Shown here in pieces: positions 1,739 to 6,829 of a stretch of 64,000 nt of DNA. The stretch comes from Verrucomicrobiales bacterium (lineage in GTDB: Bacteria > Verrucomicrobiota > Verrucomicrobiia > Limisphaerales > UBA9464): positions 124,001-188,000 of the forward strand of contig JAIYBC010000025.1 of NCBI GenBank assembly GCA_027488845.1. Direction: 5' to 3'. The position numbers and the translations under genes were made by a program. The number at the start of each line of letters is the position of its first letter. The stretch's first letter is position 1. A model generated the notes under the pieces. The model saw only the letters and a program-made list of their open reading frames with translations, did not search any database and was not told where the DNA came from.

Positions 1739-1985
1739 ACGGGATCGGCACGCGGAGACGCGGAGAACGCGGAGGAATGGGAACACGATCCGAGGAAGAC
1801 TTTGGAGATCGTCGGTCTTCTCTCCGTGGCCTCCGCGCCTCCGCGTGCACTTCCCCTTGAACGGCGGCAGGACGACCAACTCAGGTCGGTTCTCTTCAGC
1901 AGAACACCCAGATGGGTCAGTGTCGGTTCTCCGCGTGTCGGTGTGAGATCCGTCTTCGCTCCATCTGGATCGTTCCGACTCAGGG
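1739..1985. repeat. Dispersed inverted repeat with GGGATYGGCACGC core (reference copy)
   Basis: Fills most of the 387-base gap 1654-2040. The left arm at 1748-1775 is three CGCGGAG-type units; the right arm at 1822-1848 is its near-perfect reverse complement, with about 46 bases between them. The left arm is preceded by GGGATCGGCACGC (1741-1753), a core also present near 6990 (reverse complement) and 46452. The flank at 1950-1961 (GTCTTCGCTCC) recurs as GTCTTTGCTCC near 46601. No protein is encoded that I would defend. Confidence 0.7.
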
Positions 1986-2040
1986 ACACCCCCTTTCCGC
2001 TTTCGCCGTCGGGCGCCCGGCCGCATCGTCCCGCCCGTCC

Positions 2041-3120
2041 ATGGGCAACACGTTTGGTCACCTGTTCCGCATCACCACCTGGGGCGAATCCCACGGGGGC
2101 GGCGTCGGCGTCGTCATCGACGGCTGCCCGCCGCGCGTGCCGCTCACGGAGGCGGACATCCAGCCGGATCTCGACCGCCGTCGCCCCGGCCAGTCGTCGA
2201 TCACCACGCCGCGCAAGGAGACGGACACGGTGAAGATCCTGTCGGGCACGTTCGAGGGACTGACCACGGGCACGCCGATCTCGATGTGGGTGAAGAACGA
2301 GGACTTCCGCTCGGAGGCCTACAACGAGATGTCGGAGAAGTTCCGTCCGAGCCATGCCGACTACACCTACCACGCGAAGTACGGGCATCGGGCGTGGCCC
2401 GGGGGCGGACGCACGAGCGCGCGGGAGACCATCGGACGGGTCGCCGCCGGCGCGTTGGCGAAGAAGATCCTCAAGGCCCGCTGGGGCGTGGAGGTGCTCG
2501 CGTGCGTGACGCAGGTGCAGCACCTGAAGGCGACGGTCGACGCGGACGCCTTCACGTCGGAGCAGGTGGAGGCGAACATCCTCCGCTGTCCGGACGCGGC
2601 GGCCGCGCCGGCGATGATCGAGCTGATCGAGCAGCGGCGCAGCGAGGGCGACAGCGTCGGCGGCATCGTGTTGGGCGTCGCCCGCAACGTCCCGGTCGGC
2701 TGGGGCGACCCGGTGTTCGACCGGCTCGAGGCCGACCTGGCGAAGGCGATGTTGTCGCTGCCGGCGACGAAGGGTTTCGAGGTGGGCTCGGGCTTCGAGG
2801 GCGTGCTGCTCACGGGCCTGCAGCACAACGACCCGTTCCGCAACGTGGACGGCGAGGTCGTGACGACGTCGAACCGTTCCGGCGGGATCCAAGGGGGCAT
2901 CTCGAACGGCGCGCCGATCCATTTCCGCGTCGCGTTCAAGCCGGTGGCCACGGTCATGCACGAGCAGGACACCGTGGACGTGCAGTACCGGGACACGACG
3001 CTGCGCGGTCGCGGCCGTCACGATCCGTGCGTGCTGCCACGTGCGGTGCCGATGGTGGAGGCGATGACCGCGCTGGTCTTGCTCGACCATGCGCTGCGTC
3101 ATGAGGCCCAGTGCCGCTGA
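2041..3120 (+). CDS. aroC: Chorismate synthase
   Basis: 359 residues, the usual length. It catalyses the last step of the shikimate pathway, converting EPSP to chorismate with reduced FMN. The start is fixed by the family N-terminus [19 protein letters not shown] at 2041; the 43 codons upstream in frame do not resemble the family. All signature blocks are present: [14 protein letters not shown], the [10 protein letters not shown] block, [33 protein letters not shown], and the C-terminal [19 protein letters not shown]. Single gene; the repeat element upstream separates it from neighbours. Confidence 0.97.
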
Positions 3121-3149
3121 TCCCGGCCCGTCCGCAGAGGAGCGGAAGG

Positions 3150-3257
3150 GGCTTCATCCGCAGGAGGAGCATCCGCAGATGACGCCGATGGCCGCGGATC
3201 CGGAAGGGCTCGGTTTCCGGACATCTGCGGGAATCTGGGACATCTGTGGATGAACCC
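3150..3257. repeat. Imperfect inverted repeat (ATCCGCAGATG / CATCTGCGG)
   Basis: The 208-base gap between aroC and the hydrolase gene contains GGCTTCATCCGCAG plus ATCCGCAGATG (about 3150-3181), matched in reverse by CATCTGCGG plus CATCTGTGGATGAACC (about 3222-3257). The arms are roughly 32-36 bases with a ~40-base loop. It could act as a transcript-end hairpin or be another small mobile or REP-like unit; there is no T-run to call a terminator. Confidence 0.55.
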
Positions 3258-3328
3258 TCGGTGGATCCCGTGCGGAGGATCTGCGGGCACTTGCGTCGGG
3301 GACGGGTCGCGGTTAATCGGTTCGCGAC

Positions 3329-4102
3329 ATGAAACGATTCTGGATCCTCCTCAGCCTGCTGCTGCCCACGGCCCTTTCCGGGGCGATCCGGACCCAGACG
3401 GTCGAGTATCGGGACGGCGACACGGTCCTCGAGGGATTCGCGGCCTGGGACGACGCCGTCACCGGCAAGCGTCCGGGGATCCTGGTGGTGCACCAGTGGA
3501 TGGGCCTCACGGACTACGAGCGCAAGCGCTGCGAGATGCTGGCGGGCCTGGGCTACGTGGCGTTCGCCGCGGACATCTACGGCAAGGGCGTGCGTCCGGC
3601 CAACCCCGGTGAGGCGGGCGGCGTGGCGGGCAGGTACAAGAACGACCGCCCGGTGCTGCGGGGTCGGGTGAACGCGGGCCTGGAGAAGCTGAAGGCGCTG
3701 GAGACCTGCGACGCCTCGAAGACCGCGGCCATCGGCTACTGTTTCGGAGGCACGACTGTCTTGGAGCTGGCGCGGAGCGGGGCCGAGGTGGCAGGTGTGG
3801 TGAGCTTCCACGGCGGACTCGGTTCCCCGACCCCGGCGGACGCCTCGAGGATCCGCGGCAAGGTGCTGGCCCTGCATGGCGCCGACGATCCGTTCGTTCC
3901 GGCGGCGGAGGTGGCGGGCTTCGAGAAGGAGATGCGCGACGCCAAGTGCGACTGGCAGCTGGTGGCCTACGGCGGCGCGGTGCACAGCTTCACCCATTGG
4001 ACCGCCGGCACCGACAACTCGAAGGGCGCGGCCTACAACGAGAAGGCCGACAAGCGTTCCTGGTCGGCGATGAAGGGTTTCTTCGAGGAACTCTTCCGCT
4101 GA
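3329..4102 (+). CDS. Secreted dienelactone hydrolase family protein
   Basis: 257 residues with a signal peptide over residues 1-18 (MKRFWILLSLLLPTALSGA), so the enzyme is exported. The alpha/beta-hydrolase fold shows the dienelactone-hydrolase nucleophile motif G-Y-C138-F-G-G, the acid in GADD (Asp186/187) and the histidine His219 in GGAVHSF. Cys instead of Ser as nucleophile is typical of this family. Known members hydrolyse lactones or esters; the substrate here is unknown. The KNDRPVLRGRVNAGLEKLKAL block is characteristic of the secreted subgroup often annotated simply as DLH. Free-standing gene, 52 bases before dop. Confidence 0.88.
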   Translation: MKRFWILLSLLLPTALSGAIRTQTVEYRDGDTVLEGFAAWDDAVTGKRPGILVVHQWMGLTDYERKRCEMLAGLGYVAFAADIYGKGVRPANPGEAGGVAGRYKNDRPVLRGRVNAGLEKLKALETCDASKTAAIGYCFGGTTVLELARSGAEVAGVVSFHGGLGSPTPADASRIRGKVLALHGADDPFVPAAEVAGFEKEMRDAKCDWQLVAYGGAVHSFTHWTAGTDNSKGAAYNEKADKRSWSAMKGFFEELFR

Positions 4103-4154
4103 GGTCCCAAGGACCCGGTCGCGGCCACGCGTCCCCCGCCTGCTCCCTTCATCC

Positions 4155-5687
4155 ATGAGTACCGAGGTGCGCATCCTGGCCGGGTTGGAGACCGAGTTCG
4201 GCATCACGCGCGACACGGAGCCGGGCGAGGAGTTGGACGTGGTGGCGGAGTCGATCGCGGTGGTCCGCGCGGCGGCCTGCGGCGGTGCCCGGATGTGCTG
4301 GGACTACCGGTGCGAGGATCCGCACCAGGACACGCGGGGATTCCGGGTGGACGCGCTGCGCCAGGACACAGACGAGTCGGGGTACCTCGAGCAGGATGCA
4401 CAGCGGCCGCTGACGTTCGCGGAGATCAAGAGCGACCGGGCGTTGACCAATGGCGGGCGCTTCTACAACGACCATGCGCATCCGGAGTACTGCACACCGG
4501 AATGCGCCGGGCCGGAGGACCTGGTGGCGCACGACCGCGCCGGCGAGCGTTGGGTGATGGACGGCGCCCGGCGTCTTGCCAAGGAACGCGGTCGCGCGGT
4601 GCGGATCCACAAGAACAACACGGACTACCTCGGGCACAGCTATGGGTGCCACGAGAACTACCTCCTTCCGCGTTCGCTGGACTGGGACGACCTGTGCGCG
4701 GGCATCGAGGCATTCCTGGTCACGAGGTCCGTCTTCTGCGGCGCCGGGAAGTTCGGCGTCGAGGACGAGGACCGGTTCGTCGGACCGGGATTCCAGCTGA
4801 GCCAGCGCGCGGACTTCTTCCGGGTCCGCCAGAGCGTGGACACCATGCAGGAGCGTCCGCTGATCAACACGCGGGACGAACCGCATGCGGATCCGACGCG
4901 CTGGAGGCGGTTCCATGTGATCCTGGGGGACTCGAACCTCTCCGGCTTCGCGACGCGGTTGAAGGTGGCGTCCACCGCGTTGGTGCTCGAGGCGTTGGTC
5001 CGCGATCCGGGACTCGTGCGCGGGCTGCCGCGGCTGGCCGATCCGCTGGCCGCGTTCCGGTCCATCTCGCGCGATCCGACCTTCCGCTGGGAGGTGGCCC
5101 TGGAAGGCGGAGGCGCCTCGACGGCGTTGGAAGTCCAGCGTGCCTACCTCGCGGCGGTCGTCGCCCGGGTGGATCCGTCGCGATCGGCCTGGGCGGAGGT
5201 GCTGGGCGACTGGGAAGCCGTGCTCGCGGACCTGGCCGCGGATCCGGGCCTCTGTTCCGACCGCCTGGACTGGGTGGCGAAGCGCGCCTTGATCCGGGCC
5301 TTCCAGGAGGAGGAAGGGATCGACGACGACGATCCGTGGCTGCGCAGCCTGGACCTCGCCTACTCGCTGTTGGACCCGGCGGACGGGTTGCATGCGGGGC
5401 TGGAGGCGTCGGGCTCGATGCGCATGCCGGTGGAGGAACACGCCGTGGAGGAGGCGATGCGTGAGGCCCCGCAGGACACGCGCGCAGCGGTCCGGGGCGC
5501 GTGCCTGGAACGGTTCCCGGAGGCGGTCCTGGCCGCGCAATGGGACCACGTCGTGTTGCGCACGAGCCGTGGACCGTTCCGCGTGGACCTGACGGGCCTT
5601 TTCGATCCCGCGGCCGTCCGCGAGCGGCTCCGCTGGATCCAAGCCGCGGCGGATCCCGACGCCCTGGCGGCGTCTTGGAATCCGTGA
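4155..5687 (+). CDS. dop: Dop (Pup/UBact deamidase-depupylase family)
   Basis: 510 residues, the usual Dop length. The fold is the carboxylate-amine-ligase type shared by PafA and Dop. Near the N-terminus GLETEFGI gives the nucleotide/Mg-binding Glu12 and Glu14. The active-site block TNGGRFYNDHAHPEY carries Asp106, the position of the catalytic Asp of Dop. Further family blocks are KNNTDYLGHSYGCHENYL, FQLSQRADFF, NTRDEPHAD and GDSNLSGFATRLK. Dop rather than PafA is favoured by the insertion at about 66-92 (Dop-loop position), WDY...TRGF before it, and GSMRM...EHAV near the C-terminus. Dop deamidates or removes a small ubiquitin-like tag. No tag gene, pafA, proteasome subunit or ATPase is nearby. 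Confidence 0.88.
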   Translation: MSTEVRILAGLETEFGITRDTEPGEELDVVAESIAVVRAAACGGARMCWDYRCEDPHQDTRGFRVDALRQDTDESGYLEQDAQRPLTFAEIKSDRALTNGGRFYNDHAHPEYCTPECAGPEDLVAHDRAGERWVMDGARRLAKERGRAVRIHKNNTDYLGHSYGCHENYLLPRSLDWDDLCAGIEAFLVTRSVFCGAGKFGVEDEDRFVGPGFQLSQRADFFRVRQSVDTMQERPLINTRDEPHADPTRWRRFHVILGDSNLSGFATRLKVASTALVLEALVRDPGLVRGLPRLADPLAAFRSISRDPTFRWEVALEGGGASTALEVQRAYLAAVVARVDPSRSAWAEVLGDWEAVLADLAADPGLCSDRLDWVAKRALIRAFQEEEGIDDDDPWLRSLDLAYSLLDPADGLHAGLEASGSMRMPVEEHAVEEAMREAPQDTRAAVRGACLERFPEAVLAAQWDHVVLRTSRGPFRVDLTGLFDPAAVRERLRWIQAAADPDALAASWNP

Positions 5688-5703
5688 GGATCCGGGCCGC
5701 GTT

Positions 5704-5727
5704 TGGACACGGATTCCACGGATTCGT
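5704..5727. repeat. Short dispersed repeat fragment (GGACACGGATTCCACGGATT)
   Basis: The sequence GGACACGGATTCCACGGATT occurs here and almost unchanged at 32867 (GGACATGGATTCCACGGATT). It belongs to the CACGGAC/CACGGAT unit class of the other intergenic repeats. The rest of the 167-base gap between dop and the AraC gene shows nothing else. Confidence 0.45.
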
Positions 5728-5854
5728 CCGGGGATATGGGTCGGGTCGGGGTCGGGTGCGGCGCGGCACCCTCACCCGGAGACCCATGGATGCCGGGTTC
5801 CGGTCGAACCCGGCTTGCGATCCCCGTGCGGCGTCCGGCAGGCTGCCAACGTAG

Positions 5855-6829
5855 ATGAAACCCGGATCGGAGGCGCAGGCGACGCTCACGAGGATCGCCG
5901 AAAGCGGCATCTTCGAGATGCACGACATCTCCGCGCACCTCGACGCCTCGGGGCTCTACCGGCTTCCGTTCCAGCGCGAGTTCCCGCTGTCGCTCCGGGC
6001 TTTCCGCTACCGGGCGGGGCTGTTCACCCAGGGCGCCACCTGGCACGAGCAGCTGGAGCTCTTCTGCGTGGTCGACGGCGCGGTCGACGTGCGCATGGGC
6101 AGCCAGACCGTGAAGCTGGGACCGGGCGACCTGCTGGTGGTGGACAACCAGAAGCTCCACCACGTGGTGGACCATCCCGGCCTGGACGCGCGGGTGATCG
6201 TGGTGAGCTTCCTGCCGGAACTCGTCTACAGCCTCGGATCGTCGTCGCACGACTACGCATTCCTGCTACCCTTCTACGCGCAGCTCGAGGAACGGCCCAA
6301 CGTGCTCCGGAGCACCGATCCCGCGGCGCAGGAGGCGGCGTCGGCCTTGGGACGGCTGGTCGCCGAGTTCTTCGCCCCGCCGGAGACGCCCTACCGCGAG
6401 GCGGCGTGCAAGGCCCGGCTGCTGGGGTTGCTCACGGTGTTGCTGCGACGGTTCCAGGACGCGGACGTGATGCGCTGGCAGTTCGAGCGGCGGCGGCAGA
6501 TGGCCCAGCGTTTCGTCCGGCTTCTGGAGCATCTGCGTCGGCCCGAGGCCGGGAAGCTGTCGCTGGGCGAGGCGGCGCGGATGTGCGGCATGAGCACGGC
6601 CAGCTTCACCCGCTCCTTCAAGCAGGTGGCCGGCATGCCCTATCTCGCCTACGTGACGCATCTACGGCTCGGCGAGGCGGCCCGGCTGCTGCGGATCGGC
6701 GACCGGTCGATCGCGGAGATCGCGGACGCCCTGGGGTTCGCGGACCAGAGCCACTTCGACCGGCGGTTCAAGCGGGCCTTCGGGACGACCCCGAGCCAGT
6801 TCCAGAGGCGGCATCGGCCCGAGGCCTGA
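5855..6829 (+). CDS. AraC-family transcriptional regulator (cupin + HTH)
   Basis: 324 residues. The N-terminal ~150 residues are a cupin-like sugar-sensing domain (GATWHEQLELFCVVDGAVDVRMG, GPGDLLVVDNQKLHHV). The C-terminal ~110 residues hold the two helix-turn-helix units of AraC proteins (LSLGEAARMCGMSTASFTRSFKQVAGMPYLAYVTHLRLGEAARLL, then SIAEIADALGFADQSHFDRRFKRAFGTTPSQF). It sits immediately upstream of, and in the same orientation as, the apiose operon that starts at 7080. A local activator of that operon responding to apiose is a reasonable inference but not shown. A 250-base gap with a repeat element separates the two. Confidence 0.93.
   Translation: MKPGSEAQATLTRIAESGIFEMHDISAHLDASGLYRLPFQREFPLSLRAFRYRAGLFTQGATWHEQLELFCVVDGAVDVRMGSQTVKLGPGDLLVVDNQKLHHVVDHPGLDARVIVVSFLPELVYSLGSSSHDYAFLLPFYAQLEERPNVLRSTDPAAQEAASALGRLVAEFFAPPETPYREAACKARLLGLLTVLLRRFQDADVMRWQFERRRQMAQRFVRLLEHLRRPEAGKLSLGEAARMCGMSTASFTRSFKQVAGMPYLAYVTHLRLGEAARLLRIGDRSIAEIADALGFADQSHFDRRFKRAFGTTPSQFQRRHRPEA

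Follow-up and report, generated by a model that had tools for sequence, protein, structure and literature searches.

The locus described here raises the question of why a gene for a Dop-type enzyme stands without any proteasome or tag gene beside it. The window, i.e. the whole stretch of 64,000 nucleotides that was analysed, lies on contig C25 of the draft genome of a Verrucomicrobiales bacterium (5.39 Mb in 69 contigs, 95% complete). A preliminary description of it had reported a lone dop far from its usual partners, and had proposed that either the system is scattered or this Dop has another job. The tag UBact has been proposed for several Gram-negative phyla. For the Pup system, Barandun et al. 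2012 (PMC3511204) give the gene order dop-pup-prcB-prcA-pafA with mpa/arc and call it "rigidly conserved"; they also state that Dop deamidates PupQ and strips Pup from lysines, whereas PafA acts as the ligase. Section 5 of the same text admits unrelated genes before pafA and a nearby separate ATPase operon.

The open reading frame is predicted to encode a Dop that is ordinary as an enzyme. In profile searches the protein matches the Pfam family PF03136 (Pup_ligase) with 491 bits, and the NCBIfam model for Dop (TIGR03688, depupylase_Dop) with 430 bits versus 318 bits for the PafA model (TIGR03686). Both scores are below the curated NCBI cut-offs of 492 and 551 bits, respectively, which marks the protein as a divergent Dop. 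The TIGR03688 equivalog cut-off serves as a naming threshold and, since it is not reached, the protein is described here as a Dop-type enzyme of the UBact system and not as an equivalog of actinobacterial Dop. Among PDB sequences the best match is Dop 4b0r, presumably from Acidothermus, with 354 bits, versus 212 bits for PafA 4b0t. The alignment to 4b0r spans its residues 8–468 and includes the N-terminal loop. It places Glu12, Glu14 and Asp106 on the residues listed in Table 1, of which Asp94 of 4b0r is taken to be catalytic. These three residues and the two loop motifs are invariant in all 12 Dops aligned, out of the 18 found among relatives, so that the Dop-type active site and Dop loop claimed in the preliminary description are confirmed by both alignments. 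The Dops of three congeners are 97–98% identical to the window Dop and share its N-terminus. An AlphaFold model (mean pLDDT 73, below 50 for residues 23–111) was built on a shallow alignment and is given no weight. In PMC9556782 a WDYEV element of the Dop loop was deleted.

Table 1. Position of dop and of its conserved elements in the window.
Feature	Position	Strand	Remarks
dop	4155..5687	+	510 aa, ATG start; carboxylate-amine ligase family; depupylase type, UBact system
E12-T13-E14 codons of dop	4188..4196	+	aligned with E8-T9-E10 of Dop 4b0r; invariant in 12 aligned Dops
Dop loop conserved core, W49-D50-Y51 ... R61-G62-F63	4299..4343	+	4b0r alignment; 12-Dop alignment
D106 codon of dop	4470..4472	+	aligned with D94 of Dop 4b0r; invariant in 12 aligned Dops

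A search of the window genome reveals two Pup_ligase matches, the window dop and a gene on contig C28. Together with the searches for proteasome, ARC and UBact genes this gives one match per part, distributed over four contigs: dop on C25, UBact-prcB on C51, prcA-pafA on C28 and ARC on C32. None of the other parts thus lies inside the window. Judged from the contig ends, dop is at least 128 kb away from all of them, and ARC and pafA are separated from each other by at least about 12 kb. The UBact protein of 57 residues ends in RQRTGE and scores 70.7 bits against NF033388 (cut-off 35); the stop codon of its gene overlaps the start of prcB as ATGA. PrcB matches TIGR03690 with 140 bits, below the cut-off of 192. 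PrcA scores 39.9 bits against TIGR03691, also below the cut-off, and has no Pfam match at an E-value of 0.01, for which reason its structure was modelled. The best matches of the model (mean pLDDT 84.6) among solved structures are chains of the Mycobacterium tuberculosis 20S proteasome (E-value 2.5e-13, TM-score 0.78; the listing gives no alpha or beta type), and by this model PrcA is present with a predicted 20S fold. ARC matches PF17758 and PF16450 above the cut-offs. The Pup_ligase protein encoded on C28 is ambiguous by score (251 bits with the Dop model versus 236 bits with the PafA model; 213 bits with 4b0r versus 195 bits with 4b0t). It is named PafA because it aligns without the Dop loop and because its gene directly follows prcA, the usual position of pafA. 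Dop, PafA, PrcA and PrcB of this genome are all under the NCBI curated cut-offs.

The genes for which a genome search had been proposed, i.e. pafA, prcA/prcB, the ATPase and a tag ending in Gly-Glu or Gly-Gln, all have matches at three loci other than that of dop, with the C28 gene as putative pafA. The suggestion that the system is scattered is borne out. The description of a lone dop is correct locally, as the other parts are on other contigs, but misleading for the genome as a whole, where each part of the system has a match. A search of the genome, which is 95% complete, for a conventional cluster with a better-matched dop, which would have made the window copy a diverged paralogue, gave no such cluster, and the Pup_ligase search found no second dop.

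The surroundings of dop are as described before, with a dienelactone hydrolase gene upstream, itself preceded by aroC (chorismate synthase), and a gene for an AraC-type regulator downstream. The dop gene starts 52 bp after the hydrolase gene and is 128 kb and 162 kb away from the two ends of its contig. Only weak, short repeats are present around dop, and no promoter-like or terminator-like sites occur in positions 1900–6000, a number as low as expected by chance. The order aroC-hydrolase-dop was observed in the four carriers of the window genus alone. An aroC locus is available for 24 other genomes; two of these (G004 and G024), with less than 1 kb downstream of aroC, were left out, and in none of the remaining 22 is the hydrolase gene found downstream of aroC. 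As a consequence, an empty site at the aroC-hydrolase locus is not definable.

The same arrangement is found in close relatives. In one congener (G013) all four pieces recur together with their flanks, i.e. aroC-hydrolase-dop, UBact-prcB, prcA-pafA and ARC. In two others (G012 and G005) the dop, UBact-prcB and ARC pieces have the same flanks as in the window genome; no match to pafA is present in G012, whose prcA lies at a contig end, and neither pafA nor prcA is found in G005, which is 67% complete. The flank of UBact-prcB in this genus is a divergently oriented semialdehyde dehydrogenase gene. The breaks between the pieces lie within contigs, with other genes around them. The scattering is therefore real, and the system occupies four separate loci. 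The AroC proteins of the four carriers are at least 98% identical, compared to 86–89% in the 13 further congeners for which AroC was matched (93% for a fragment in G004). The four carriers thus form one tight clade and their agreement represents one event.

The layout of the operon was read in 25 carriers, comprising 18 relatives and seven more genomes from a draw across the phylum. The full order ARC-dop-UBact-prcB-prcA-pafA is present on one contig in G019, G026, G047, G048, G053, G066 and G100, and G032 and G051 are consistent with this order across contig ends; G112, G130 and G210 were judged from the positions of dop, UBact and pafA only. ARC is displaced in G027 (after pafA) and G056 (other contig), pafA is on another contig in G021 and G038, and ARC-dop is separate from UBact-prcB-prcA-pafA in G040, G055 and G050. 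In G050 UBact was not seen; the contig ends just upstream of prcB. Three pieces, ARC-dop, UBact-prcB-prcA and pafA, are present in G071 and G224 of a second family, and four pieces in G000 and G013, as well as in G005 and G012 as far as readable. The operon thus breaks at differing joints among relatives. Apparent splits in G051, where prcA is cut by two contig ends, and in G032, where contig ends cut ARC, were rejected as contig breaks. One joint is kept throughout: wherever both genes were read, UBact adjoins prcB, in 21 of 21 genomes (17 relatives and four of the phylum draw). Separation of prcB from prcA is limited to the window genus among the genomes read. In six genomes, i.e. the four of the window genus, G071 and G224, neither dop nor pafA accompanies UBact within the 6 to 19.5 kb that were read.

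Of the 21 UBact proteins read, 10 end in Glu and 11 in Gln, and both endings occur even within one family (Gln in G071, Glu in G224). The idea that dop was freed because a UBact ending in Glu needs no deamidation is unsupported as a rule, since these 21 proteins show no pattern of ending versus linkage: UBacts encoded on the same contig as dop end in Glu in five cases and Gln in eight, those encoded apart from dop in Glu in five (from two lineages only) and Gln in three.

In the trees of dop, pafA and ARC, the window genus groups with G021 and G027 of its own family. In the dop tree the group has a support of 83/61, and the pairing of G027 with the window genus one of 93/94. The value is 100/99 in the pafA tree and likewise in the ARC tree, in which G047 also joins the group; the prcB and prcA trees do not settle the place of the window genus. 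The dop, pafA and ARC trees fit a descent of the pieces from one family operon, followed by fission of this ancestral operon. The window genus has a long stem in all five protein trees (0.72–1.44). Its distance from G021 exceeds that of G027 by 6–8 identity points in dop, prcB, prcA and ARC, compared to two points in AroC and one in pafA; either relaxed constraint or a change of partner might lie behind this extra divergence. A different history is apparent for a second genus of the family, g2 (G019, G026 and G032), whose Dop, PafA, PrcB and PrcA group with those of G053, a member of another family, and not with the window genus, as does the ARC of G019 and G026. This grouping suggests horizontal transfer of the cluster.

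Across genomes, Dop and the tag are found together. Pup_ligase matches are present in 19 of 59 relatives, the window genome included; 18 of these carry the system and the remaining one is G028, discussed below. Among the 18 carriers, UBact is found in 17, ARC in 18, prcB in 18 and prcA in 17, the prcA search having covered only the 19 genomes with Pup_ligase. None of the 40 relatives that lack PF03136 has a match to UBact, ARC or prcB. Among the 240 genomes of the phylum draw, which also included the window genome, the same eight have PF03136 and UBact above the cut-off; G287 has one UBact match below the cut-off and no Pup_ligase. The genomes are related, which makes these counts weaker than they appear. 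As Dop tracks the tag so closely, an unrelated job for Dop is not expected.

Taken together, the window gene is very probably the dop, and the only one found, of a UBact-proteasome system, the ancestral operon of which has been broken into four pieces in this lineage. The order ARC-dop-UBact-prcB-prcA-pafA would have given rise to ARC, dop, UBact-prcB and prcA-pafA, whose products would still work together. PafA would attach UBact, through the side chain of its C-terminal Glu, to lysines of the targets, and ARC would unfold the tagged proteins into the 20S core formed by PrcA and PrcB. Dop, by cutting the isopeptide bond, would rescue targets and recycle UBact. Because UBact is encoded here with a terminal Glu, the conversion of Gln to Glu by Dop should be unneeded, leaving only removal of the tag.

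Three other readings of the scattered layout were considered. An assembly or binning artefact, by which the pieces of one operon ended up on wrong contigs, might be suspected because all compared genomes of the genus are drafts, in 69 to 980 contigs. However, the position of the breaks inside contigs and the recurrence of the flanks in congeners argue against it, as does the dispersal in G071 and G224, assembled in 20 and 10 contigs, respectively, and such an artefact is extremely improbable. A system in decay, on its way to loss by dispersal and with parts that have ceased to cooperate, would agree with the long stem branches and with the finding that 15 of the 18 congeners searched, several of them incomplete genomes, have no match to Pup_ligase, UBact, ARC or prcB. 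Nevertheless, the dN/dS values of the six system genes, calculated against three congeners (against only one for pafA and prcA), are as low as 0.08–0.24, although somewhat above those of the neighbours aroC and hydrolase (0–0.11), and the system-gene matches of the four carriers contain no internal stop. Decay is therefore considered very unlikely.

The remaining reading is that of a repurposed Dop, which has left the tagging system for another substrate, e.g. one linked to the neighbouring hydrolase. The isolated position between aroC/hydrolase and the AraC-type regulator would fit such a change, and the extra divergence of the window genus, in dop as well as in prcB, prcA and ARC, leaves room for a changed function. 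A scan of public genomes points in the same direction: among the best 80 of at least 584 confirmed Dop relatives, 79 loci contain at least one partner gene in the flank read (at most 10 kb per side, often less), and the sole partnerless locus, L171, encodes a Dop 97% identical to that of the window and apparently belongs to the window genus. On the other hand, the genome holds the tag, a second ligase-type enzyme, the ATPase and the core, and no dop other than this one was found in it. The window Dop agrees in active site and loop with Dops encoded in clusters, the parts co-occur with PF03136 in both genome samples, and the order aroC-hydrolase-dop was observed in the four carriers alone, the hydrolase being absent from the 22 other aroC loci. 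The proposal of another job is thus unsupported, and repurposing has hardly any likelihood. With the broken UBact operon as the preferred reading, the dispersal itself might be functional. As UBact is already in the Glu form, production of Dop need not be coupled to that of tag and ligase, and separate control, with dop placed behind the hydrolase gene, could set the lifetime of the tag independently of tagging, with UBact-prcB as the one joint kept by selection; this is a rather doubtful proposal, with a small chance of being correct.

The scan also brought up two MAG records with unexpected titles: L171 is titled Akkermansia muciniphila, and L182, with a Dop 62% identical to that of the window, is titled Klebsiella pneumoniae, a name which looks wrong.

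Compared to the clustered UBact systems (NF033388; G047, G048, G066 and G100), the window genome has the same six genes, related proteins and a tag of the type RQRTG[E/Q], but it differs in its four loci, in the separation of prcB from prcA and in the position of UBact beside neither dop nor pafA. With the actinobacterial Pup system it shares homologous Dop, ARC, PrcA and PrcB, a homologous putative PafA, the G[E/Q] end of the tag and the same ancestral order. Unlike in that system, the tag belongs to the UBact family and lacks the ending QKGG[E/Q], ARC ends in Val or Ile instead of GQYL, and the order has been lost. The window Dop matches Dop 4b0r/4b0s in the active-site Glu and Asp residues and in the Dop loop; its substrate is presumably UBact and not Pup. 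The scattering departs from the published statements on gene order. The system is a known one in what appears to be a new layout; the literature search yielded no primary paper on UBact. Searches that require a cluster will miss scattered systems or take their components for isolated genes, and lineages with broken operons provide a natural series for asking which gene pairs must stay together.

Some loci outside the system described above deserve mention. In a Chloroflexi locus (L224, JAJDVX010000005.1), dop and pafA are adjacent, and within about 10 kb the models recognise no proteasome, ATPase or tag gene. G028, a member of the window's family, has a different Pup-type locus (L140, 4130–12199) without 20S genes, and the genome search found no UBact, PF17758 or PF00227 match despite its Pup_ligase genes. 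The locus contains genes for a JAB-like protein (just below the cut-off), an AAA ATPase with a proteasomal OB domain and a Pup_ligase homologue, a 66-residue open reading frame ending in SGGQ, and genes for a second Pup_ligase homologue, in which TPR is matched weakly, and for a peptidase of family M50. This organisation is reminiscent of the loci without proteasome genes in Rhodopirellula and Plesiocystis (PMC2588565).

The ARC proteins of all 18 carriers end in Val or Ile (e.g. SGVV, SGIV or HGVI), without a penultimate Tyr. The same holds for the ending of all 18 ARCs from L173, L175–L178, L181–L186, L188, L189, L207, L251, L254, L257 and L258, a set which partly overlaps with the carriers; a UBact-type tag is present in the same locus for 11 of these 18. 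Most other ARCs of the L-series, mainly actinobacterial, end in GQYL, and that of L187 (a Nitrospirae record), ending in AIE, was left out of the classing. Since genomes with a Val/Ile-tailed ARC have 20S genes where these were looked for, such ARCs may dock on the core by a different tail.
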